From NCBI GenBank assembly GCA_028824555.1, contig JAPPDJ010000008.1, positions 1 through 46,780 on the forward strand: 46,780 nt of DNA. The letters run 5' to 3'. Position numbers and translations under genes: made by a program. Below, piece by piece: positions 25,595 through 41,054 of this stretch (position 1 is its first letter; every line of letters begins with the position of its first letter). The notes under the pieces are model-generated. The model saw only the letters and a list, made by a program, of their open reading frames with translations, did no database searches and was not told the DNA's origin. The stretch comes from Gammaproteobacteria bacterium (GTDB taxonomy: Bacteria; Pseudomonadota; Gammaproteobacteria; Pseudomonadales; Azotimanducaceae).

Positions 25595-28500
25595 TCAGGC
25601 GAGGGGTTCGCGGAGGAGTTGGAGGAGCTCTTCTGCGCGCAGGCGGCCGGGGGCGTCGGCGTCCTGCAAGAGGCGGTCGGCGAGGTCTTTCTTGTGGTGG
25701 TGCAGTTCGACGATTTGGTCTTCGATGGTGCCCTTGGCGACCAGGCGGTAGATGGTTACGGGGCGGGTTTGGCCGATGCGGTGGGCGCGGTCGGAGGCTT
25801 GGTCCTCAACCGCTGGGTTCCACCAGGGGTCCATGTGGATGACGTAGTCGGCGGCGGTGAGGTTTAGACCCGTGCCACCGGCCTTGAGGGAGATCAGGAA
25901 GACATCGCCTTCCCCGGCTTGGAACGCCGCCGTGCGCTGCGCCCGCGCCTTGGCCGGTGTGCTGCCGTCGAGATACTGATAGGGGATACCGAGTTCCTGC
26001 ACCACCTCCTCGATGCGCTTCAGGTGGCGCACGAACTGCGAGAAAACGAGCACCTTGTGGCGGTTTTCGCGCAGTTCCAGCAGCACTTCTCGGAACGCCG
26101 CAAGCTTGGAACTCGCGGGGGCGCCTTGCTCGCGCACCAAGCGGGGGTCGCAGCAAGCGAGGCGCAGGCGGGTGAGGTGGGCGAGCACCTTGAGCCTTGC
26201 CGCCCCCGGTTGGTCGAGGGATTCGCCGCCGAGGTCCTCCATCGCCCGCTGCCTGAGCGCCTCGTAGAAGCTCGCCTCCTCCGCCGACATCTCGACATGC
26301 AGGGTGATTTCGGTTCGTTCGGGCAGGTCGTCGAGCACGTCCGTCTTCAGGCGGCGCAGCATGAAGGGCGCGATCAGGCGGCGCAGGCGAGCGCGCGCCT
26401 CGGCGTCGTTGTCGCGCTCGATGGGCAGGGCGAAGCTCTCGCGGTAGTGGGCGAGGGAGCCGAGCAGGCCCGGGTTGATGAAGCCGAACAGCGAGTAGAG
26501 GTCCATTAGGTTGTTCTGGATCGGCGTGCCCGTGGTGATGAGGCGGAAGCTCGCTGGGATCGCCCGAGCCGCTCGGGCGCGCTTGGTGGCGGCGTTCTTG
26601 ATCGCTTGCGCCTCGTCGAGCACCGCTGCACGCCAATCCACCTCGGCGATCCGTTCGATGTCGTTCTGCAACAGGCCGTAGGTGGTCAGCACGAGGTCGA
26701 AGGGCCCCACATCCTTGAGCCGCTCGCCGCGGCCCGCCGCATCACCCACGTATGGGATGACGTTCAAGGTGGGGGCGAATCGGCGCGCCTCGCCTTGCCA
26801 GTTGGCGACCACCGAAGTGGGGCAGACCACCAGTGCCGGGCCTTCCGGCGCAAGCTGCAGAAGCAGCGCCAGTGCCTGCACGGTCTTGCCGAGGCCCATG
26901 TCGTCGGCGAGGCAAGCGCCAGCGCCCCAGTGGCCGAGCCGTGCCAGCCAGTGGTAGCCATCGCGCTGATACGGTCGTAGCTCCGCCTGCAAGGTGCTCG
27001 GCAGTTCCGGCTCGAAGGCTTGCGCCTCGCTCATGCGCTGGCGCTGCTGGTCCCATGCGGCGTCTGCCTCCACGCTCGCGCCGTCGAGCAGGTCGTCGAA
27101 AGCGAGGGCGGTTAGCGGGTGGAAGCGCACGTTCTTGCCGGACGAGGTCGAAAGGCTGCGCAGGTCGTCGAGTTGGCGCCGGAACGAGTTGGTGAGGGCA
27201 AGGAAGCCCTGTTCGCCGAGCTTTAGGAAGCGGGAGCCCGGGCTTTCGTCGAGCAGCCGGAAGAGTTCCCTAAGACCCACCGCCTCCTCGTCGTTGATGC
27301 GAAGTTCGCCGGAGGCGGTGAACCATTGCTCGGCGGACTTGACGGTGAGGTTGAGCGACCCCGCCGTGGCTCCGGCGACGATGCGGAACGCCTCGCCGTC
27401 CGGCCACAGGCAGCGCGCGCCGGCGGCGCCGAGTTGCTCCACGAGTTCGAGGCAAGCTGCGGGTGCGTCCAGTTCCATCGTCCAGTTGCCGGACTCGCCA
27501 GCATCGATGCCGTGCAGGGATGGGCAGGCATCGATGACTCGCCGTGCGGCCTCGCGTTCCGCAGCCAGGTTGCGCCGCGCCTGCACCGTCTCGCCGTCCT
27601 CCACCGCGAACACCGTGCTGCCGCCAGTGCCCGGTGCCAAGTACACGTCTGAGCCCGGCACCGGCGCGACCAGCATGTCGGCGATGAGGCCCGAGCCATT
27701 CGGCACCAGTCGAAGCCACGGCTCGGGGTCGGCGGGCACTTCCCGCGCCGCCACGGCCTCGTCGCCGGCGCTTTGGACGCGCACCTCGGCCGCCAAGGCC
27801 GCAATGGCCGTGAGGAAGCGTGAGCGGACGGCAGCAGGTAGCTCCAAGCCCCCTTCGGGGACGATGTCGCAGAGCTTGCGCTGGCTGTCGGTGAACCTCG
27901 TCACCTCGATGCGGGTGTCACTCGGCACCGATCCAGTGAACCGGTTGGTGGGCCCCGGGTGCGGGTTCATGCGCAGGATCGCGCCCCCCTCGCCAGCCTC
28001 TTCGACGATCAGTTCCGGTTCGCGCTCGACGACCTGCACGGCCTTGCCGTCGGATTCGACATGGGGATGACCCACGAGGGCGTGCACGGCTGCCCAAGCG
28101 GCGTCTTCAATACCGCCCTGCAAGTTCCCGAGGGCTGCGATCGCGGTGCGGTCCTGTTCGGACAGGAAGTCCATCCCGCGGGCCTGGACCGCCAGCCGGT
28201 AGCGATCCACCAGCCGACCCTTGGTCCACTTGCCGCCCCTGGTTGCCTTCTGCTCGCGGCAACTCAGTATCGGTACGTCCTCATGCTCGTACCAGACGCT
28301 GGGCCTTGAATGGGGGGCGGAAGGCATGTGGCTCGTTTGGACTTCCCACACCAGCCGTCGCTGCCCGGCATTGGCGCGAGGCCCGGTCTTGGAAGACCTC
28401 GACTTTGCGGCCATTTCCTCGAGCGCCGCGAGGGAGTGATGCCATGCTGGCAGGGGCCTTGCCGCGTCCGCGAGCGTTATCGTTCCGAGCGCGTGGTGGA

Positions 28501-29761
28501 GGTGCTGCGCGGAGGCCTCGTGGTTATCTTCGGATACTCCGGAGCGCGCCAGCATTTCGCGCGCTTCTGCCTCGATCCAGCGATGGCCGTGTCGCCGCCC
28601 GACTTCGAGCAGGAGCTCTGTCTCCGCCTGCCAATCCAGGGGGAGGACGTACGCATCGCCAGCAAGAGCCTGAGCCTGCCACAGCGAGCTCAGGCACTTG
28701 CCCATGAGGCCCATGGCGGTGTGGCCGAACCAGTCGACGCTGCGGTGAACGGCTTGCAGGCGTTGTTCCGCCGCCAACCCCAGCAGCCGGTGCAAGTCGG
28801 GGTCGCGGGCGAGCTTTTGGCCGGTCCGGAGCACGCGCTCCAGCTCGCCTTGGGGCGCGAGGTCGTGGCTGCGTACCCATGCGACGAGCGCAAGTGAAAT
28901 GGCGCGGTGGGGCGGATAGACGTTTCTCTTGCGGGTGCCGGCGCGCTCGGCGGCAAGAGCCGTCTCGATGTACTTGGTGGCTGCCTCGTCGTCGCCGCGC
29001 AACATGGCGACCAAGGCTTGGGTGCTAGCGTGCGCCGTGGTCCAGAACTTCTGACCCAAAGCATCGCTCGGCGGCTTGTCGAAGAGAGCCAGCGCTTGAT
29101 CGAACTGCCCGCGCAGAACGTGGAGGAATGCCGCCTCGTCGATGTGGTCCGTCGGCTCGGCGGCGTGGTCGCGCCAGGCTTGCAGCGCCAAGTCTGGGTC
29201 GATGCCGATCTCGATGCTGGTGGCCAGGAGTGCCTCGACGCCAGCCGCGCGGTAACGCTCCGGGAAGGTGGGCAGCAATTCGATTCCGCCCGGATAGGCG
29301 AGAAAGCGAAACTGGTGCGCTCTCGTGGCAAGCTCGTCCGCTTGATCGAACTCGCCCGCCACCAGCAGATTGCGCAGACGTCGCTCGATCCCGATGTCGT
29401 AGCCCAGCGGACCGGTGTGGTTTTTCGTGAAGGGATGCGCGAGGAATCGGGCGAGATTGCCGGATTCCTTAGCGCCCAGGGTTGCGGGGATGCATGCAGA
29501 CAGGTCGATCAACGCCCGGGTCTTGCCCTTGCGCTGCGCCAGCCCTTGAGCGATCAGTTCGCCCTTCGCCTGCCGGAAGTTGGCGAGGTTGAATCGGGGG
29601 CTCGGTTCGTGGTTCGCAAAGGCGGTGCGCGCAACATTCCACGCTTGCTCCGAACCCATCGTTTCCGGGTAGGCGATGGCGAGCACTTGGAGGAAGAGCT
29701 CGGCTGCCGGCGAAATGGTGCGTTGTTCCTGCGTTACATCGGGAAATAGAGCTTGTGTCAC
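25595..29761 (-). CDS. Large SNF2-family DNA-dependent ATPase (DEAD/DEAH helicase-like)
   Basis: A 1388-aa Swi2/Snf2-type translocase. The ATPase core fills the C-terminal third: LRPYQRDGYHWLARL near residue 927, Walker A DDMGLGKT near 957, DEAQ box VLDEAQAIKN near 1048, STGTP-like ITTGTPIQNN, the helicase C domain from about 1235 (KVLVFSQF) and DRAHRIGQTRPV near 1325. The N-terminal 900 residues contain a winged-helix-like start (VTQALFPDVTQEQRTISPAAELFLQ), then helical TPR-like repeats, and a beta-rich region before the core. It lacks RapA's own N-terminal motifs, so the name HepA/RapA is not used. The GTG at 29761 lies 29 bases after the upstream stop; the alternative at 29851 would overlap that gene. 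It is co-directional and probably co-transcribed with the RidA fusion. Confidence 0.9.
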   Translation of the reverse strand: MTQALFPDVTQEQRTISPAAELFLQVLAIAYPETMGSEQAWNVARTAFANHEPSPRFNLANFRQAKGELIAQGLAQRKGKTRALIDLSACIPATLGAKESGNLARFLAHPFTKNHTGPLGYDIGIERRLRNLLVAGEFDQADELATRAHQFRFLAYPGGIELLPTFPERYRAAGVEALLATSIEIGIDPDLALQAWRDHAAEPTDHIDEAAFLHVLRGQFDQALALFDKPPSDALGQKFWTTAHASTQALVAMLRGDDEAATKYIETALAAERAGTRKRNVYPPHRAISLALVAWVRSHDLAPQGELERVLRTGQKLARDPDLHRLLGLAAEQRLQAVHRSVDWFGHTAMGLMGKCLSSLWQAQALAGDAYVLPLDWQAETELLLEVGRRHGHRWIEAEAREMLARSGVSEDNHEASAQHLHHALGTITLADAARPLPAWHHSLAALEEMAAKSRSSKTGPRANAGQRRLVWEVQTSHMPSAPHSRPSVWYEHEDVPILSCREQKATRGGKWTKGRLVDRYRLAVQARGMDFLSEQDRTAIAALGNLQGGIEDAAWAAVHALVGHPHVESDGKAVQVVEREPELIVEEAGEGGAILRMNPHPGPTNRFTGSVPSDTRIEVTRFTDSQRKLCDIVPEGGLELPAAVRSRFLTAIAALAAEVRVQSAGDEAVAAREVPADPEPWLRLVPNGSGLIADMLVAPVPGSDVYLAPGTGGSTVFAVEDGETVQARRNLAAEREAARRVIDACPSLHGIDAGESGNWTMELDAPAACLELVEQLGAAGARCLWPDGEAFRIVAGATAGSLNLTVKSAEQWFTASGELRINDEEAVGLRELFRLLDESPGSRFLKLGEQGFLALTNSFRRQLDDLRSLSTSSGKNVRFHPLTALAFDDLLDGASVEADAAWDQQRQRMSEAQAFEPELPSTLQAELRPYQRDGYHWLARLGHWGAGACLADDMGLGKTVQALALLLQLAPEGPALVVCPTSVVANWQGEARRFAPTLNVIPYVGDAAGRGERLKDVGPFDLVLTTYGLLQNDIERIAEVDWRAAVLDEAQAIKNAATKRARAARAIPASFRLITTGTPIQNNLMDLYSLFGFINPGLLGSLAHYRESFALPIERDNDAEARARLRRLIAPFMLRRLKTDVLDDLPERTEITLHVEMSAEEASFYEALRQRAMEDLGGESLDQPGAARLKVLAHLTRLRLACCDPRLVREQGAPASSKLAAFREVLLELRENRHKVLVFSQFVRHLKRIEEVVQELGIPYQYLDGSTPAKARAQRTAAFQAGEGDVFLISLKAGGTGLNLTAADYVIHMDPWWNPAVEDQASDRAHRIGQTRPVTIYRLVAKGTIEDQIVELHHHKKDLADRLLQDADAPGRLRAEELLQLLREPLA

Positions 29762-29790
29762 TGTCTTCCTGTTGTTGGGCTGGGACTTGG

Positions 29791-31551
29791 CTATGGCCCC
29801 GCCCGAAGCGGAGTGCGAGTGTGTCCCGGCGGCTCGAACGCGCCGCGCCACGCGCCCCGGCGCTGGCGTTGCGCTTCCTTCTCCGCATCGCTCAGGAGCC
29901 AGGCGGCGTCACCTTCGCCCATGGCGTAGCCGGCGACCACCATGAGATAGGCGAGGTTCGCTTCGGTGAAGAGATCCTCGTCGGTCTCGGGCAGGGCCAT
30001 ACCCTCTTCAATCACGGTGCAAAGGCCCAAGTTGGGGTAGGCGACAAGGCAAAAGACGGGCTTGTCGCGCACCAGCGATTGCAAATGGATGGTCGCTTCT
30101 TGTCCGCACGGATAGACGACACCGTCGGCATCCATGCAGGTTTGATCGGGACGCAGTGCCTCGATGCCGGCCAGCACGACTACCTCGTCGCCTTCGAGGA
30201 TCAGCGTTTCACCGTCGATGGCGTTGGCGCGAGCGGGCCCCAACGGCACCCACTCGTCGCGGCCCATCGCCTCGAACAACTCGCTATTGGTAACGAGCAC
30301 GCCGACAGCCGCCACGACAGCCGCCAAAGCCGTCCGCGCCAGACCCACGCGCAGCCGTTTGCCGTGCAGTCGCTCGTGAATCTGCTTGAGCGGCGGCAGC
30401 ACCCGCAATACGCCGTAGGCCATGATGGCGAGCGTTGCGATGGCGTACGCCGTGAGCTCCGGCTTCGTATCAACCGAGGCGGCCATGCCTTGCAGGAGCG
30501 TGGCCGTGAATATGAGGCCAATGCTGCTGCCGAAGAACAGGCTCCAGTTCCAAAGCAGCACCGAAAAGCCCGACAGCGGGGCGAAGTAGCGCAAGTTGTC
30601 GGCGGCGAAGACATCGAGCACCGGCGGATCGAGGCGAAAGATGTCGCGCGCCATGGCGGCGGTCAGGTCGTCGTCGGCGAGCGCCGCAAGGAGCATCTTT
30701 AGCCGGCTGGCCGTCAGCCAGAACAGGAACATGGCGAACGCAAGGCAGGCTATGGGCAATACCGAAAGCGGGATGTCGAACTCGCCAACGGGCAACGTGC
30801 CTTCGCCAGCACCGATCAGATTCACGAGCGCGGCGAGGAAGATGGTCACGACCGTGCCCGCGAGCGAAATCCAGAAGAGGTTCGAGAGGGACTCGATGGA
30901 GCGAACCAATGCTTCGGCAGGAATCGACAAGGGACTGATTCCGGCGTAGTCGGTCAGGCGCAGTCCTGGATCGGGCGTGTCTCCATCTCGAAGGGCTGTG
31001 GCTCGTGGTGCGGTGCGGGCCGGCACCGGTTCGCTAGGCGACGGCGCCGTCGACATTTCGTTGACCGGAAGCAGGGCCGCCTCGGCTTCCACTTCCACCG
31101 GTGCCCCGAAAGGCAGTTCCGCGACGCCAATGGCGGAACGCGAGTGTCGACCCCTTTCGCCGAACACCTCGAGCAAGAGCTCGGAGAAGCCGTTGATCAC
31201 GCCAGGCAAGGCGTTGAAGCCCGGTGCCGCATTGACCATCCCGAATGCCTTGCGCCACTCCACCCGGTCTAGGTCCACGCCGGCGGCTTGCAGGCTCGCC
31301 AACATGCCGAGCGCCACCTGCCGCGCCGCTTGGTAGGCCTCGTCGGCATCCACCTCGGCGCCGACTTTCCCGAGCGGCTTCGCCAACTTGCCGTCGGCAT
31401 CGAAGGGCAGGTGGCCGGCGATGGTGATGCGCCTTCCGGACACATGCACGGTGTCGAACTTCTGCCCCGGAATGCGCATCGCCGGCGGCAGCTCAAGGCC
31501 CAGTTCAGCCAAGCGTTCGAGAGCGGAAATGGCTGTAGCCTCCGACCACAC
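29791..31551 (-). CDS. Fusion of RidA-like domain, five membrane helices and SNase-like domain
   Basis: A 586-aa fusion in one uninterrupted frame. Residues 1-165 are a RidA/YjgF-type domain: GKVGAEVDADEAYQAARQ, then GMVNAAPGF and GRHSRSAIGVAELP (134-147). A Pro/Ala linker (165-205) leads to hydrophobic helices near 226-246, 262-280, 326-354, 368-385 and 403-420. Residues 441-575 resemble staphylococcal-nuclease-like domains: DGETLILEGDEVVVLAG, then DQTC, YPCGQEA, and a final AEKEAQRQRRGAWRGAFEPPG. The catalytic positions look lost: the RLLLVDTPE-type segment reads VVLAGIEALRP (Asp to Glu464, no Glu after it) and the later Arg is absent (YPNLGLC). The GTG at 31551 matches the RidA N-terminus but has no good ribosome site; the frame remains open to 31953 inside the divergent PhyH gene. 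The SNF2 ATPase follows at 29 bases. Confidence 0.83.
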   Translation of the reverse strand: MWSEATAISALERLAELGLELPPAMRIPGQKFDTVHVSGRRITIAGHLPFDADGKLAKPLGKVGAEVDADEAYQAARQVALGMLASLQAAGVDLDRVEWRKAFGMVNAAPGFNALPGVINGFSELLLEVFGERGRHSRSAIGVAELPFGAPVEVEAEAALLPVNEMSTAPSPSEPVPARTAPRATALRDGDTPDPGLRLTDYAGISPLSIPAEALVRSIESLSNLFWISLAGTVVTIFLAALVNLIGAGEGTLPVGEFDIPLSVLPIACLAFAMFLFWLTASRLKMLLAALADDDLTAAMARDIFRLDPPVLDVFAADNLRYFAPLSGFSVLLWNWSLFFGSSIGLIFTATLLQGMAASVDTKPELTAYAIATLAIMAYGVLRVLPPLKQIHERLHGKRLRVGLARTALAAVVAAVGVLVTNSELFEAMGRDEWVPLGPARANAIDGETLILEGDEVVVLAGIEALRPDQTCMDADGVVYPCGQEATIHLQSLVRDKPVFCLVAYPNLGLCTVIEEGMALPETDEDLFTEANLAYLMVVAGYAMGEGDAAWLLSDAEKEAQRQRRGAWRGAFEPPGHTRTPLRAGP

Positions 31552-31735: not shown

Positions 31736-32920
31736 GTGGCAGAGGCGATGGACATGCAAGAGGACGTGACTTCCTCAACCTCCGGCGACTTGCCCAAGGT
31801 CGCGGAGGCGGACACGGTGGTGGCGCGGCTGCGGGCCGAGAACGCGCAGTTGCGGGCAGAACTGGCGCGGGCGAAGGGGGATGGAGCGGGGCTCGGCGTC
31901 GATGGCGCGGCCACCGGGGACGGATCGTGGCAAGAGGCGATGCGGCTTGGCATTGCCTATGCGGACAATCGCTCGTCCACCAGTGCCGCGTCTGCCGGCC
32001 ATTTGCTGTCGCAGCTCTCCGGGCTCTCCAAGGAGCGCATGAAGGCCGGGCGCATCGCCAACAGCAGCGATTTCGACTATCTGCCTCGCCCGAGTGCCGA
32101 CGAGGCGCAACTCGAAGCCGACTTCGTGCGCTGGGGCTATTGCCTGGTGGCAGACGCCATGTCGCCGAGCCAGGTGCGGGCGCAGGTGGAGCGCTTGGTT
32201 GCGCAAGCCGAAGCCGAGAGGCAGCGAGATTCCGCAATCATGACGAGCCGAAACGAAGAGGCCCAGCTCGTCAACAACCTCGTGCTCAAGGGGCAGGTGT
32301 TCCGAGACGCCGTGGAATTCAAGGAGTCCGCCGCCCAGCGTGGGCCGCTGGTGGACAGGCTCCTCACCAAGGTGATGGGCGAGGGATTCGGCCTCGGCTG
32401 CGCCCACGGCTCCATCGTCCACGAGGGCGGCGGCTTGCAGGAGCTGCACATCGACCAGGGCGGCATGCCGATGCCCTACCCGCCGTTCCCGTTCGGCTCC
32501 CTCATCATCTGGGTCTATACCGAGTTCAACCTCGCGAACGGCGCAACCTACGTTGTGCCGGGGTCTCACCGCAGTGCCGGTGGTGCGACGCTGTTTCGCG
32601 ACGGTGCGGATCTGGTGCAACTCGTGGACGGCGAACCAGGCCTCGTGGCCATCTGCGCGCCCGCCGGTACCTGCATCCTCACCGATACCCGCGTGCTCCA
32701 CTGCGGCGGCCGCCGCACCGCCCCCGGCACCCGCTACGCCATGCGCTGCCACTACAACCGCCATTTCATCCGCGCCCTGCACGAACAGTCCAAGGCAAAC
32801 CTGCACGTGCCCACGGAGACGTGGGAGCGCCTCTCGCCGCGCTTGAAACAGATGATGGGCATCACCGTGAACGACCAGTCGCCGACCGGGGAACTGTCTG
32901 GGGCCCATCGGACGGGATAG
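31736..32920 (+). CDS. Phytanoyl-CoA dioxygenase (PhyH) family protein with N-terminal coiled coil
   Basis: A 394-aa Fe(II)/2-oxoglutarate oxygenase. The iron ligands are His238 and Asp240 in ELHIDQGG and the distal His322 in VLHCGG. Arg333 in GTRYAMRCHY is the 2-oxoglutarate ligand. YVVPGSHRSAGG (272-283) is the typical loop. Residues about 22-47 (VVARLRAENAQLRAELARAK) form a short leucine-heptad coiled coil before the core, which the other PhyH proteins lack. Possible starts are GTG 31736, ATG 31748 and ATG 31754, none clearly favoured by ribosome site. Divergent from the RidA fusion gene. The substrate is unknown. Confidence 0.9.
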   Translation: MAEAMDMQEDVTSSTSGDLPKVAEADTVVARLRAENAQLRAELARAKGDGAGLGVDGAATGDGSWQEAMRLGIAYADNRSSTSAASAGHLLSQLSGLSKERMKAGRIANSSDFDYLPRPSADEAQLEADFVRWGYCLVADAMSPSQVRAQVERLVAQAEAERQRDSAIMTSRNEEAQLVNNLVLKGQVFRDAVEFKESAAQRGPLVDRLLTKVMGEGFGLGCAHGSIVHEGGGLQELHIDQGGMPMPYPPFPFGSLIIWVYTEFNLANGATYVVPGSHRSAGGATLFRDGADLVQLVDGEPGLVAICAPAGTCILTDTRVLHCGGRRTAPGTRYAMRCHYNRHFIRALHEQSKANLHVPTETWERLSPRLKQMMGITVNDQSPTGELSGAHRTG

Positions 32921-36877: not shown

Positions 36878-37066
36878 TCATTCTCCCGCTTCGGTCGCTA
36901 CCGGGCAAGCGCATTCGCAGGGCTCGGTGAACTGGAGGTACACGCCCCAGCCGAACAAGATGCTTAAGGTGATGCAGGAGGCGATGACGCCGGCGCCGAC
37001 GATCTTCATGCCGGCCGGTTCACGGGGTGGTTCGGGCGTCGCTGGTGTGGGAAGCGGCTCGCTCAT
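36878..37066 (-). CDS. 62-aa single-pass membrane protein with CxCxC motif
   Basis: A short protein with a Pro/Glu-rich N-terminus (1-18), one hydrophobic helix (about 22-45, with Cys31) and a short tail holding Cys50-Glu-Cys52-Ala-Cys54. Its ATG overlaps the TGA of the upstream ABC transporter gene (ATGA at 37063-37066), strong evidence that it is translated with it. No homologue is recognised. The CxCxC tail could bind metal or form disulfides; it may be a small subunit of the ABC exporter. Both ideas are inference. Confidence 0.7.
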   Translation of the reverse strand: MSEPLPTPATPEPPREPAGMKIVGAGVIASCITLSILFGWGVYLQFTEPCECACPVATEAGE

Positions 37067-39084
37067 GCGGTTCTCCCGGACTGGAGTTCGACGAAGGTTG
37101 CGTAGGTGCCGCCGGCGGAGACGAGTTCGGCGTGGGTGCCGGATTCCACGACTTCGCCATCGTCGAGGAAGTAGATGCGGTCAGCCGAGCGGATGGTGGA
37201 GAGGCGGTGGGCGATGACGATCACGAGCCGGCCTTCGCGTGCCTCGCGCAAGTTGGCCATGAGGCGGTTCTCGGTTTGTGGGTCCAGCGCCGCCGTGGGC
37301 TCGTCGAGGATCAGGATGGGCTTGTTCGAGACCAGTGCCCGAGCGATGGCGATGCGCTGCTTCTGGCCCACAGAAAGCTTGGCGCCGGCACGGCCGAGAT
37401 GGGTGTCGTAGCCCTCGTCGAGACCGTCGATGAAGTCCGCTACGCCGGCGATGCGGGCCGCCTCGCGCACTTCCTCGTCCGTTGCCCCTCGCCGGCCCAT
37501 GCGGATGTTGCCTTCGATGGTGTCGTTGAAGATGCTGGTTTCCTGGAACACGAACGCCACCTGCCGGCGCACGGCGGCGAGGTCGAACGGCGTCAGTTGC
37601 CGGCCATCGAGGTAGTAGCGCCCTGATGTCGGCGTCAGCAGCGCCGGGATCAGGTAGGCGAGGGTGGACTTGCCAGCTCCCGTTGGCCCCGCCAGTGCCA
37701 CCATCTGGCCGATGCGGCCCTCGAAATCGATGCCGGTCAGGGCGCGGGTGCCGTCGGGATAATCGTAGTCCACCCCTTCGAGCCGCACGCCCTCGGTGAG
37801 GGCGAAGGCGTCGTCGAACTCCTGCCGTTCGCGGTCGCCTTCGAGTGCCTCCACCGGCGCGTCGAGAATGGCAAACACCCGTCGCATCCCGGTGACGTTC
37901 TCTTGCAGGCTGAACCAGAGCCGGCCGAGATACACCGAAGATGCGGCGATGGCGCCGAAATAGCCCCAGATCACCCACCAGTCGCCTGGCGCGAGCCGAC
38001 CTTCGATGAACTCTGGCGCGAGGAAGTAGAAGACGAGGAAGATCATGCAAACGCCGATGACGGTGGTGGTGAAGCCGCTCAGCACGTTCACCAGCACCAC
38101 GCCGCGAAAGCGCTTGAAGGAATCGGCGCTGGCGGCGGCAAAGCGGGCGTGGTCTTCCTTGCCGCTGCCCACGCCCTGCACCGCCATCACGTTGGCCATC
38201 TCCTCCTCGATGGTGGCGGTGGTGACCGAGCCTGCCTCCCGCGCCAGCGTGCCCTGGCGGCGCATCAGGCGGGCGAAGTAGAGCACTCCGGCGAAGGACA
38301 GCGGCGCCACCGCCAGGGCGCACCACACCACAACGGGAATGTTCCGAAACACGAGGAACATCATGAGGATGGTGGTGGCGAGATTGACTGCCGAAGTGGC
38401 TGGCCCCACCCACAGATTGAAGATGATGTTGGAAATCGACGGCGTGTCGTACATGCCGCGATAGACCACATCGCCAATGGAGCGGTCGTTGAAGTCGGTG
38501 ACCCGGTGGGCGTTGAAGCGACCGAACAGTTCGCTGCGCAGCCGATGGTTGAGGCGATGGGTGATGCGGATGTGCCAGAGCGCCTCGAACAGGCCAAAAA
38601 GACCCCCGACCAGGGAGTGCATGTTGTTGGCGTCGTTCTCCGACTTGGTGGCGGTGTCCTGTCCCTGCGCCAGTTCCGTTTCGGTGCTGCTGCGCTGGGC
38701 GCCATCCGTGCCGTAGGCGCCGGCTAGCACCACCATGAGCAGGAACAGGGCGCCCATGAAGAAGACGGTCTCATAGGCCGAGAGCGGTTCCACCATCGCC
38801 AGGAGCGGCTTGAAGAAGAACGGCGGGATGCTCTCGACGGTTGCGCTAGGGTCTGAATCCCTGAGGACGATGTAGTCGATCACCACCTTGGCTGGCCACG
38901 GCAGCACGAGAATCCAGAAAATGCTCGTCATCTGCGCCGCCGCCTTCACCGCGAGGTCGAAGCGGAACACGAACGTGTAGCGCATCGCGCGGCCGATGAT
39001 GCGGAGCGCTTCGCCGCTCGTGATGGTCTCGGGGGCTTCGGCCGCTCGCGCCGGGGCCTGTTGCGGGATTGCGGCTTCTGCCAC
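37063..39084 (-). CDS. ABC exporter half-transporter (membrane + ATPase), second of a pair
   Basis: A 673-aa type IV (MsbA-like) half-transporter. The N-terminal part has the membrane helices, with a long loop carrying many charged residues between the first helices (about 85-200). The ATPase domain has Walker A LAGPTGAGKST near residue 468, Q-loop VFQETSIFND, signature KLSVGQKQR near 570, Walker B LILDEPTAALD near 592 and H-loop IAHRLST. All catalytic residues are present. The GTG at 39084 has GGGAGG 6 bases before it and lies 2 bases after the stop of the first half-transporter, so the pair is co-translated and probably forms a heterodimer. The substrate is unknown. Confidence 0.92.
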   Translation of the reverse strand: MAEAAIPQQAPARAAEAPETITSGEALRIIGRAMRYTFVFRFDLAVKAAAQMTSIFWILVLPWPAKVVIDYIVLRDSDPSATVESIPPFFFKPLLAMVEPLSAYETVFFMGALFLLMVVLAGAYGTDGAQRSSTETELAQGQDTATKSENDANNMHSLVGGLFGLFEALWHIRITHRLNHRLRSELFGRFNAHRVTDFNDRSIGDVVYRGMYDTPSISNIIFNLWVGPATSAVNLATTILMMFLVFRNIPVVVWCALAVAPLSFAGVLYFARLMRRQGTLAREAGSVTTATIEEEMANVMAVQGVGSGKEDHARFAAASADSFKRFRGVVLVNVLSGFTTTVIGVCMIFLVFYFLAPEFIEGRLAPGDWWVIWGYFGAIAASSVYLGRLWFSLQENVTGMRRVFAILDAPVEALEGDRERQEFDDAFALTEGVRLEGVDYDYPDGTRALTGIDFEGRIGQMVALAGPTGAGKSTLAYLIPALLTPTSGRYYLDGRQLTPFDLAAVRRQVAFVFQETSIFNDTIEGNIRMGRRGATDEEVREAARIAGVADFIDGLDEGYDTHLGRAGAKLSVGQKQRIAIARALVSNKPILILDEPTAALDPQTENRLMANLREAREGRLVIVIAHRLSTIRSADRIYFLDDGEVVESGTHAELVSAGGTYATFVELQSGRTA

Positions 39085-39086
39085 CG

Positions 39087-41054
39087 TCAGCCTCCCGCGG
39101 CCGTGCCGACCGACTCGATCTCGGCGTTCACGAAATCGCGATAGGCGGTGGGACGCGCCATCAGCTCGTCGTGGCTGCCCGTGTCCGCGACCACCCCATC
39201 CCCCAAAAAGACAATCCGATCCGCCTGTCGCACGGTGGACAGGCGGTGGGTGATGAGGAACACGGTGCGCTGCTCTGCCCATTCCTTGATGCGATTCATG
39301 ATGCGCAGTTCATGCACGGCGTCGAGGGACGCCGTGGGTTCGTCGAGAATCAGGATGGGCGTGTCCTTGAGCACGGCGCGGGCGATCACCAGCCGTTGCC
39401 GCTGGCCGGTGGAGAGCTTGGATGCGCGTTCGCCGAGGAAGGTGTCGTAGCCGTCGGCGAGGCGATCGACGTATTCGTCCACGCAAGCGACCCGCGCCGC
39501 GGCGCGCACTTCCTCGTCGCTGGCGTCCGGACGGGCGTAGCGGATGTTCTCGAGCAGCGACTTCGAGAACAGGATGTTCTCCTGGGTCGCCAGCGCAATG
39601 TTGTTGCGCACGGACTCGAAGGTGAAGTCGCGGATGTCCTCGCCGTCGAGCGTGATGCGGCCGCCGTGGAATTCGAGCATGCGCAGCAGGAGCAGCATGA
39701 GGGTCGTCTTGCCGGTGCCGGTGGGGCCGAGAATGGCGGTGACTTCACCGACCTTGGCTTCGAACGTCACGTCGGTGAATACCTCGCGCCCCGGATAGCT
39801 GAACCGCACCTCGTCGAAGCGAATGCTGTCTTGCACGGGCGGCAGGGCGCGGGCGTCTGGCCGGTTGTGGACATCCGGCGTCAGGTCGAGAATTTGGTAC
39901 ACCCGGCCAAGGCCAATGGCCACATCCTGGAGGCGACCCCAGAGCTTCACGAGACCGTCCGTGGCGGCCATCGACTGCTTGGCGTTGGAGCGCGCCTGGT
40001 CCTGGCCGCCGAGATTCCAGAGCCCAAAGCCGAACGCCAGCAGGAAGTCGCGCAGGAAAGTCTCCGCGCCGTCGTAGGCAAAGAGCGCCGCCCGCAGCTC
40101 AATGAAGGCGAGCGGGGCGACCCCGAACAGGAAGACGAAGAAGCCGAACAGCATCAGCCGCACCCGGGCATCGTGGGCGGCGGCGAAGGCACCCACCGAA
40201 TCGACATCGAACATGCGCTGCCGCTCGCCCTCCAGGCCGTTCACCTTGATGGTTCGGATGCCCTCGATGGATTCCTGAATGGTGGAGGTGAGCGCGGCGT
40301 TGCGCTCGCGCGCCATCTTGAAGCCAGCCCTGAGCGGCGCCGACATGCGCTTGCCGAGCCACAAGAGCGGAAACCATGAACAGAGGAGCACGAGGCCCAG
40401 CATGGGGCTGAACGCGGTCACGACGGCGAGGCCCATGAAGAAGCGCACGCCAGCCATGAACGTGTCCATGATCACTTGCAGGATCTGCGTCACCATGGCG
40501 CTGTCCTGGAACACGCGATAAATGGAATCGCCGGTGCGCGAGTCGGCATGGAACTTCAGCGACAGCGACTGGAACTGCCCCATCAGGTGCAGGCGCAGGT
40601 TCTGGTTGATGCCCTGGAGGATCCACACGCGGTAGTAGTGGATGGCGTGGCCGATCAACTCGCCGAGGGAGGTGGACACGGTGGCGAGGATCAGGACGCC
40701 AAAGATCACCTGATACTGCTGCGCCTTGGTGAGCGACTCCACCTCCACCCACTCGGCCGGATCGAGGAACAAGAGCGACGCGGCCAGCGGCGCCATCGGC
40801 TCGTTCAGGATGATGTTGTTGTACATCAGCCCGAAGTTGACGGCCGCGAAGAAGACACCGATGCCGGTGGCGAAGATGGCGAGCCCAATGTAGGTGAGGC
40901 TGTGCCCGAACATGGGCTTGAGATACGGCCAGATGCGAACGAGCACCCCGACCACGTCGAGGAAGTGGATGCGCGACGGATCGATCTCCCTCAGCCGCTC
41001 CGACTCGACCCGAATGCCCTCGACAGAACGACGGATAAACGCCCTGAGGCCCAC
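39087..41054 (-). CDS. ABC exporter half-transporter (membrane + ATPase), first of a pair
   Basis: A 655-aa type IV half-transporter. Six membrane helices span about 45-380, including VFFAAVNFGLMYNNIILN and the QSLSLKFHADSRTGDSIYRVFQD coupling region. The ATPase domain has Walker A LGPTGTGKTT near 447, Q-loop ATQENILFS, signature KLSTGQRQR near 548, Walker B LILDEPTASLD near 569 and H-loop ITHRLST. The start is GTG at 41054 with AGAGGTAAGG upstream. It leads a three-gene unit with the second half-transporter and the 62-aa membrane protein. Both ATPase sites look intact, unlike heterodimers with one degenerate site. Confidence 0.92.
   Translation of the reverse strand: MGLRAFIRRSVEGIRVESERLREIDPSRIHFLDVVGVLVRIWPYLKPMFGHSLTYIGLAIFATGIGVFFAAVNFGLMYNNIILNEPMAPLAASLLFLDPAEWVEVESLTKAQQYQVIFGVLILATVSTSLGELIGHAIHYYRVWILQGINQNLRLHLMGQFQSLSLKFHADSRTGDSIYRVFQDSAMVTQILQVIMDTFMAGVRFFMGLAVVTAFSPMLGLVLLCSWFPLLWLGKRMSAPLRAGFKMARERNAALTSTIQESIEGIRTIKVNGLEGERQRMFDVDSVGAFAAAHDARVRLMLFGFFVFLFGVAPLAFIELRAALFAYDGAETFLRDFLLAFGFGLWNLGGQDQARSNAKQSMAATDGLVKLWGRLQDVAIGLGRVYQILDLTPDVHNRPDARALPPVQDSIRFDEVRFSYPGREVFTDVTFEAKVGEVTAILGPTGTGKTTLMLLLLRMLEFHGGRITLDGEDIRDFTFESVRNNIALATQENILFSKSLLENIRYARPDASDEEVRAAARVACVDEYVDRLADGYDTFLGERASKLSTGQRQRLVIARAVLKDTPILILDEPTASLDAVHELRIMNRIKEWAEQRTVFLITHRLSTVRQADRIVFLGDGVVADTGSHDELMARPTAYRDFVNAEIESVGTAAGG

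Follow-up and report, generated by a model that had tools for sequence, protein, structure and literature searches.

A single gene of a gammaproteobacterial genome joins an N-terminal Rid domain, by way of a proline- and alanine-rich linker, to five predicted membrane helices and a C-terminal domain that resembles staphylococcal-type nucleases (SNases) without their catalytic residues. The join is a real gene fusion, narrowly distributed and of hypothetical benefit, and we tentatively read its product, with a confidence that stops a little short of even, as a membrane-tethered imine/enamine deaminase of the Rid1 type. The gene lies in the window, by which we mean the whole stretch of DNA analysed (46,780 nucleotides), where ORF translation gives one open frame on the minus strand, 29791-31551, that runs from a GTG start at 31551 to a stop at 29791-29793 and encodes 586 amino acids (Table 1). 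Translation of the plus strand over the same interval is interrupted by stops and is not the protein, and no clear Shine-Dalgarno sequence was seen upstream of the GTG. An earlier note on this DNA had described one continuous frame with a Rid part, a Pro/Ala linker, five hydrophobic helices and an SNase-like part, giving no strand; that frame is the minus-strand one.

Table 1. Parts of the fused gene and extent of the replaced tract, in window coordinates.
Feature	Position	Strand	Basis or remark
Whole fused gene, 586 aa plus stop	29791-31551	-	GTG start at 31551; coding part 29794-31551
Rid domain, residues 1-162, with conserved Arg138 and Glu153	31066-31551	-	Pfam matches, solved relatives, alignment
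Pro/Ala-rich linker, residues 163-193	30973-31065	-	Length varies in multiples of three
Five-helix membrane region, residues 205-421	30289-30939	-	Hydrophobic peaks, loop charges; no Pfam match
Degenerate SNase domain, residues 435-578, predicted periplasmic, Cys 472, 482, 501 and 511	29818-30249	-	Alignment, profile-profile comparison, weak model
Replaced tract, residues ~155-560 (upstream edge within 149-159)	29872-31089	-	Divergence from sister genome G009

Some match to the parts of the fused protein was found in 88 of the 206 genomes of the family that were searched. The fusion is a single frame in three genomes of genus g1 (the window genome G000, G014 and G007) and in three of genus g7 (G219, G220 and G221); in G009 each part lies at the end of a different contig, and G006 has a fused copy that is frameshifted in the SNase part, for a total of eight genomes of two genera (six intact, one split between contig ends, one frameshifted). 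The domain order Rid-linker-membrane-SNase, which the earlier note had proposed to seek in other genomes, is thereby intact in six and partly present in two more. An assembly or annotation artefact that joined two genes might be suspected where much of the data consists of metagenome-assembled genomes and where one copy is split and another frameshifted, yet six intact single frames in separate genomes, linker length differences that are multiples of three (among G000, G009 and G014) and a conserved junction region make this scarcely credible. Because it is present in eight genomes of two genera, and because its parts are separate genes in relatives, the fusion is no assembly artefact; the fused copies in other genomes likewise exclude the contrary case that the earlier note had allowed for, of parts that are always separate genes and a join made in sequencing.

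Around the fusions, each half is also found by itself. The 16 genomes of g1 comprise five with the fusion, ten with the membrane-SNase part alone (broken in G003) and one with neither, and among seven g7 genomes with a match there are three fused, three with the Rid1 part alone and one with a Rid piece at a contig end. Stand-alone Rid1 occurs in many other genera of the family; a stand-alone membrane-SNase gene occurs in g44, g22 and g14, is interrupted in two g52 genomes and is represented by pieces in g13 and g46. Beyond the family, no full-length membrane-SNase protein turned up when profiles were run against 390 genomes from the order and 369 from the class, sets that contain few family members and in which the best few candidates per genome were scored. 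Matches to the SNase part only, the window aside, came from 6 of the 390 and 10 of the 369 genomes, and a few of them include the helix before it. The fused architecture is, in the genomes searched, confined to one bacterial family. Frameshifts or stops break the membrane-pseudonuclease gene at L004/L027 (G006), L016/L028/L087 (G003), L053 (G110) and L054 (G109), perhaps through decay, phase variation or sequencing, and on contig C104 of G220 (L082) fragments of a second copy of the membrane part lie beside the intact fused gene.

The N-terminal domain belongs, by its profile matches, to the Rid family. The check that the earlier note had proposed with a Ribonuc_L-PSP-type HMM comes out positive: in a Pfam scan the domain exceeds the curated cut-offs of both PF14588 (47.4 bits against 35, E 2.3e-12) and PF01042 (31.4 bits against 27.3, E 2.1e-7), while the NCBIfam RidA-type model gives a weak match to the fused protein (E 0.073). 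Its best solved relatives are 3d01 (E 8.5e-21) and PA0814 (9bk9, E 1.7e-19), followed at some distance by ACIAD3089 (9bkb, E 1.7e-8), and both of those that bear a Rid name are of the Rid1 type, which makes Rid1 proteins the closest named relatives of the domain. Arg138 aligns with the arginine of canonical RidA and is kept in all 22 Rid1 rows of the alignment, the eight fused ones included and the distant row L025 left out; the canonical RidA rows, 8 of 19 loci, were picked by a filter requiring the Arg motif and provide no independent count. Glu153 is kept in 21 of the 22 rows (Ala in G007). In canonical RidA this arginine is numbered R105. According to PMC5619798, the Rid1 proteins PA0814 and ACIAD3089 act as deaminases on 2-aminoacrylate and on other imines; there, as in PMC4433059, the arginine equivalent to RidA R105 is treated as a determinant or predictor of deaminase activity.

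Estimates of dN/dS, made by a simple counting method with some dS values near saturation, are 0.04-0.18 for the Rid half in nine pairs of fused genes, and 0.04-0.29 for the membrane part and 0.15-0.38 for the SNase part in pairs of fused genes, with 0.54 for the SNase part in the frameshifted G006 pair set aside. Purifying selection acts on the Rid half, and it acts on both halves of the fused gene; retained deaminase activity of the Rid domain is likely, to judge from its conserved residues. According to passages of PMC4433059, Rid proteins trimerise; the full-length AF2 model, built with nine rows, was poor (pLDDT 43), too poor for analysis of a Rid trimer interface.

That the fused Rid1 substitutes for canonical RidA is a weak lead. 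In g1 any other PF01042 protein is absent from all five fused genomes, as against two of the 11 others (Fisher p 0.005, relatedness ignored). The idea fails in g7, where all three fused genomes have other PF01042 proteins and where three near-complete genomes with solo Rid1 have none. Across the 16 g1 genomes, canonical RidA (a strong PF01042 match) and the long threonine dehydratase IlvA (TIGR01124 over its cut-off) are both present in eight and both missing from six, with RidA only in one and IlvA only in one, and the absence of RidA from g1 genomes is better explained by joint loss of the two. One genome counted in g1, G015, has eight PF01042 proteins as against none to two in the others, and carries an ancestral-type locus of the stand-alone gene.

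At the other end of the protein, the SNase-like domain escapes Pfam. PF00565 has no match in the window protein at E up to 1, nor in two other fused proteins scanned, and among four stand-alone relatives three fall below the 21-bit cut-off (19.8, 18.7 and 15.3 bits) and the fourth has no match. Comparison of profiles by hhalign, using eight copies of the domain on one side and five genuine SNases on the other (three from other families of the order, two from the genus), gives a probability of 99% and E 2.9e-18 for that pair. An SNase-only AF2 model is weak (pLDDT 53), and the top 13 PDB matches of this low-confidence model in Foldseek are all SNases, none of them under E 0.001 and thus no more than suggestive. 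Shared ancestry of the C-terminal domain with SNases is supported by these comparisons; the SNase-like domain of the earlier note, for which an HMM check fails, thus holds up in its homology and also, by alignment, in its loss of catalytic residues.

Four cysteines (472, 482, 501 and 511) are invariant in all 14 aligned rows, and the predicted periplasmic domain is probably disulfide-stabilised. Where genuine SNases have IDGD the window protein has IDGET, and it has V at the position of the first Arg, E at that of the second Asp and R at that of Glu, so that E, V, E and R replace D, R, D and E, and it has a gap at the second Arg position of the catalytic set; the roles of these positions are presumably those in S. 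aureus nuclease. Two genuine SNases of the genus served for that alignment; of its nine PF00565 loci, the remaining seven failed a motif filter and stayed unaligned (most are another type without these cysteines). In the stand-alone relatives of g44 and g22 the first Asp and first Arg are changed and the second Asp, Glu and second Arg mostly kept, and solo g1 copies have the same further catalytic losses as fused copies. Decay of the SNase domain therefore began before the Rid fusion, in stand-alone relatives, and is not tied to it.

Between the two domains, five hydrophobic segments peak at residues 225-243, 262-280, 338-356, 370-388 and 402-420, in a region with no Pfam or NCBIfam match over cut-off in the members scanned. 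The mean number of Lys plus Arg over 14 aligned rows is 0.3 in loop 1-2 (18 residues), 4.9 in loop 2-3 (54 residues), 0.6 in loop 3-4 (14 residues) and 3.1 in loop 4-5 (17 residues), and 1.3 and 1.2 in the N-terminal and C-terminal flanks. In all 14 rows, the window included, loop 2-3 has more Lys plus Arg than loops 1-2 and 3-4, though at roughly three times their length; the mean for loop 4-5 is high, but some rows are weak there (one such residue in L018 and in L047). By the positive-inside rule this pattern predicts an N-in/C-out protein, with the Rid domain cytoplasmic and the SNase domain periplasmic, and a periplasmic SNase domain is in keeping with the conserved cysteines and with the DsbA-like gene next to the ancestral-type gene, described below. 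Of the earlier proposal that the two folds share one membrane anchor, the anchoring is supported, with the correction that, by the loop charges, the Rid and SNase folds on this anchor probably face opposite compartments.

Trees were built from selected loci (23 Rid rows, 30 membrane-SNase rows). In that of the Rid part, a single clade (100/98) unites the fused Rid domains with the solo Rid1 proteins of g7, which are nested within it; in that of the membrane-SNase part, three groups of fused genes stand among solos, the G009 piece being labelled solo there because its contig lacks the Rid part. A single vertically inherited fusion is rejected: in AU tests on the membrane-SNase part, monophyly of the fused genes fails (p 0.0002), whereas monophyly of the five from g1 is compatible with the data (p 0.39). 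For the Rid part, rejection is weak both for monophyly of the fused domains (p 0.017) and for monophyly of all those from g7 (p 0.022). One fusion followed by loss or exchange of halves would fit this pattern, as would several fusions.

Exchange is visible in the window gene itself. Synonymous divergence (dS) of the window genome from G009, its nearest relative, amounts to 0.13 in both PhyH and the Rid domain, 0.14 in the esterase gene and 0.12 in SNF2, but reaches 0.8-1.1 in the membrane and SNase parts, where G014 and G009 differ by ~0.2-0.3. Codon by codon, the window gene and that of G009 are nearly identical over residues 130-148, diverge from a point within 149-159 and are nearly identical again from 561; in 60-base steps the identity goes from 0.97 to 0.47-0.80 and back to 0.90-1.00. 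With divergence confined to this tract and near-identical flanks, it follows that the membrane-SNase half of the window gene was replaced, over ~1.2 kb. The replacement is one event with its upstream edge at the end of the Rid domain, and no donor of the tract was found. In most pairs the outer half of the fused gene evolves faster than the Rid half. The PhyH gene of G014 (L031 4106-5284, compared with window 31736-32917) has a dS of 0.71 to G000 and 0.76 to G009, against 0.19-0.32 for the esterase and SNF2 genes of the same genome versus these two, and exchange may accordingly touch other genes of the region and not be peculiar to the outer half.

The stand-alone membrane-SNase gene has a recurrent setting. 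In 14 ancestral-type loci (eight of g44, four of g22, one of g14 and the g1 outlier G015), several of them short (from 3 kb) so that absences there carry little weight, a DsbA-like gene lies downstream in 11 (L042, L101, L045, L077, L047, L048, L050, L051, L052, L018 and L091; same strand in ten, opposite in one), at a gap of 26 bp in four loci and of 36 bp to 1.85 kb in the rest, and a luciferase-like monooxygenase gene lies divergently upstream in 13; the Pfam identities of both neighbours are taken from the G015 copies. A DsbA-like neighbour is as would be expected of a stand-alone protein that is periplasmic and Cys-bearing. Neither gene was found in any of the 16 loci of other g1 and fused g7 genomes (nine solo, seven fused; 9-47 kb). 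An operon logic for the fused gene was rejected, no neighbours being common to G000/G014/G009, G007/G006, G220/G221 and G219 at 32% identity. Upstream of the gene, G007 and G006 have an esterase-like hydrolase that is distantly related (~31%) to the esterase close to the window gene, and the SNF2 helicase neighbour is common, among the loci examined, only to G000, G014 and G009; nothing conserved beside the fused gene hints at a source of imines.

We hypothesize that a stand-alone Rid1 gene was fused in frame with the 5' end of a membrane-pseudonuclease gene specific to the family. The partner would be an inner-membrane protein of five helices whose periplasmic SNase domain is catalytically dead and probably stabilised by disulfides. 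The Rid domain would then lie on the cytoplasmic face, and the whole protein would probably be a trimer, since Rid proteins typically form trimers. Reactive imines and enamines could be hydrolysed next to a membrane source, such as a respiratory-chain-linked amino-acid dehydrogenase, with the dead SNase domain perhaps serving as a periplasmic binding or assembly surface. It counts against such a tethered deaminase that a DsbA-like gene is near none of the seven fused loci checked and that the fusion is missing in most close relatives. Another reading, possible if on the doubtful side, is that the fusion is near-neutral: a soluble Rid1 was captured by read-through into the membrane gene and works as it does alone, its anchor having no role. 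A patchy distribution, with ten g1 genomes that have the membrane part without Rid1 and three solo g7 Rid1 nested with the fused, and the lack of a neighbourhood common to the fused groups are what one would expect if so, but six genomes from two genera keep the gene intact, purifying selection acts on each of its halves, and its membrane half was replaced with the fusion unbroken.

The same topology would also suit a transmembrane sensor, in which a ligand from the periplasm or the environment would bind to the dead SNase domain and the helices would pass the signal inward, the output lying in the activity or binding state of the Rid domain. A catalytically dead outer domain, five helices and an inner enzyme-like domain are in keeping with this, as are the faster evolution of the outer half in most pairs and its exchange as a tract in the window genome; it nevertheless appears unlikely, given that it has no known ligand, conserved partner or known Rid signalling output, that a single exchange tract was found in the fused gene and the PhyH of G014 has diverged as well, so that exchange is not special to the outer half, and that close relatives function without the Rid half. 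A stronger form, which we regard as improbable, is a modular receptor-enzyme whose exchangeable five-helix/pseudonuclease sensor half, swapped between lineages by homologous recombination, would control or position a conserved cytoplasmic Rid deaminase. Were it true, a Rid protein would be wired to the cell's outside, and the input might be periplasmic thiol chemistry (compare the DsbA-like gene at loci of the ancestral type). Clear SNase homology could be taken to mean that cleavage or binding of extracellular nucleic acid by the domain persists, in a nuclease or DNA-uptake role; this seems very improbable with the catalytic positions replaced, the gap at the second Arg, and separate proteins over the PF00565 cut-off in 9 of the 16 genomes of the genus that could do the job. 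As for the nucleic-acid binding suggested in the earlier note, nucleic acid of the cell is a less likely ligand for a domain in the periplasm. A role in anti-phage defence was rejected, no PADLOC model matching the fused protein or the one solo relative compared.

Each part belongs to a known kind, but the architecture looks new, as does the family of five-helix pseudonucleases. PA0814 and ACIAD3089 have sequence, Pfam family and active-site arginine in common with the fused Rid domain, but their solved chains (144 and 163 residues) stand alone, whereas here the Rid domain is N-terminal to five membrane helices. Tandem 3x-RidA fusions (PMC4433059) and DUF71 proteins with two C-terminal Rid domains (PMC3541065) likewise place Rid within a longer protein, but as repeats or enzyme fusions, and the relevant passages of these two papers mention neither membrane helices nor an SNase part. 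The SNase family PF00565 agrees with the C-terminal domain in profile-level homology and, for some members from the order, in Cys pattern; it differs in that the domain here lacks catalytic residues, sits behind five membrane helices and has no Pfam match. SN-like domains of SND1/Tudor-SN (4qmg, 7knx) are the top Foldseek matches, not significant (E 3e-3, TM ~0.3). SND1/Tudor-SN has the SNase fold and uses degenerate SN domains for binding; it is eukaryotic and is not known to have a Rid or membrane part. No description of a Rid-membrane-SNase protein was found in the portions of open-licence PMC papers searched, nor anything in the literature on the habitat of related MAGs. Rid proteins are treated as diffusible housekeeping repair enzymes, and a selected, membrane-anchored Rid would let one ask if imine damage is handled locally at the membrane; a single family that offers the fused, both separate and the internally exchanged states is a natural test bed for what a fusion gains.

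Two further features of the window are recorded here. Directly downstream of the fused gene lies a large SNF2 helicase gene (25595-29851, minus strand) that matches the PADLOC models DpdE (E 1.7e-180) and ZorD (E 1.4e-112), models that perhaps merely catch SNF2 helicases in general. On the same strand, 37063-39282 and 39087-41054 are adjacent ORFs that overlap by ~0.2 kb, each encoding ABC transporter membrane and ATPase domains.
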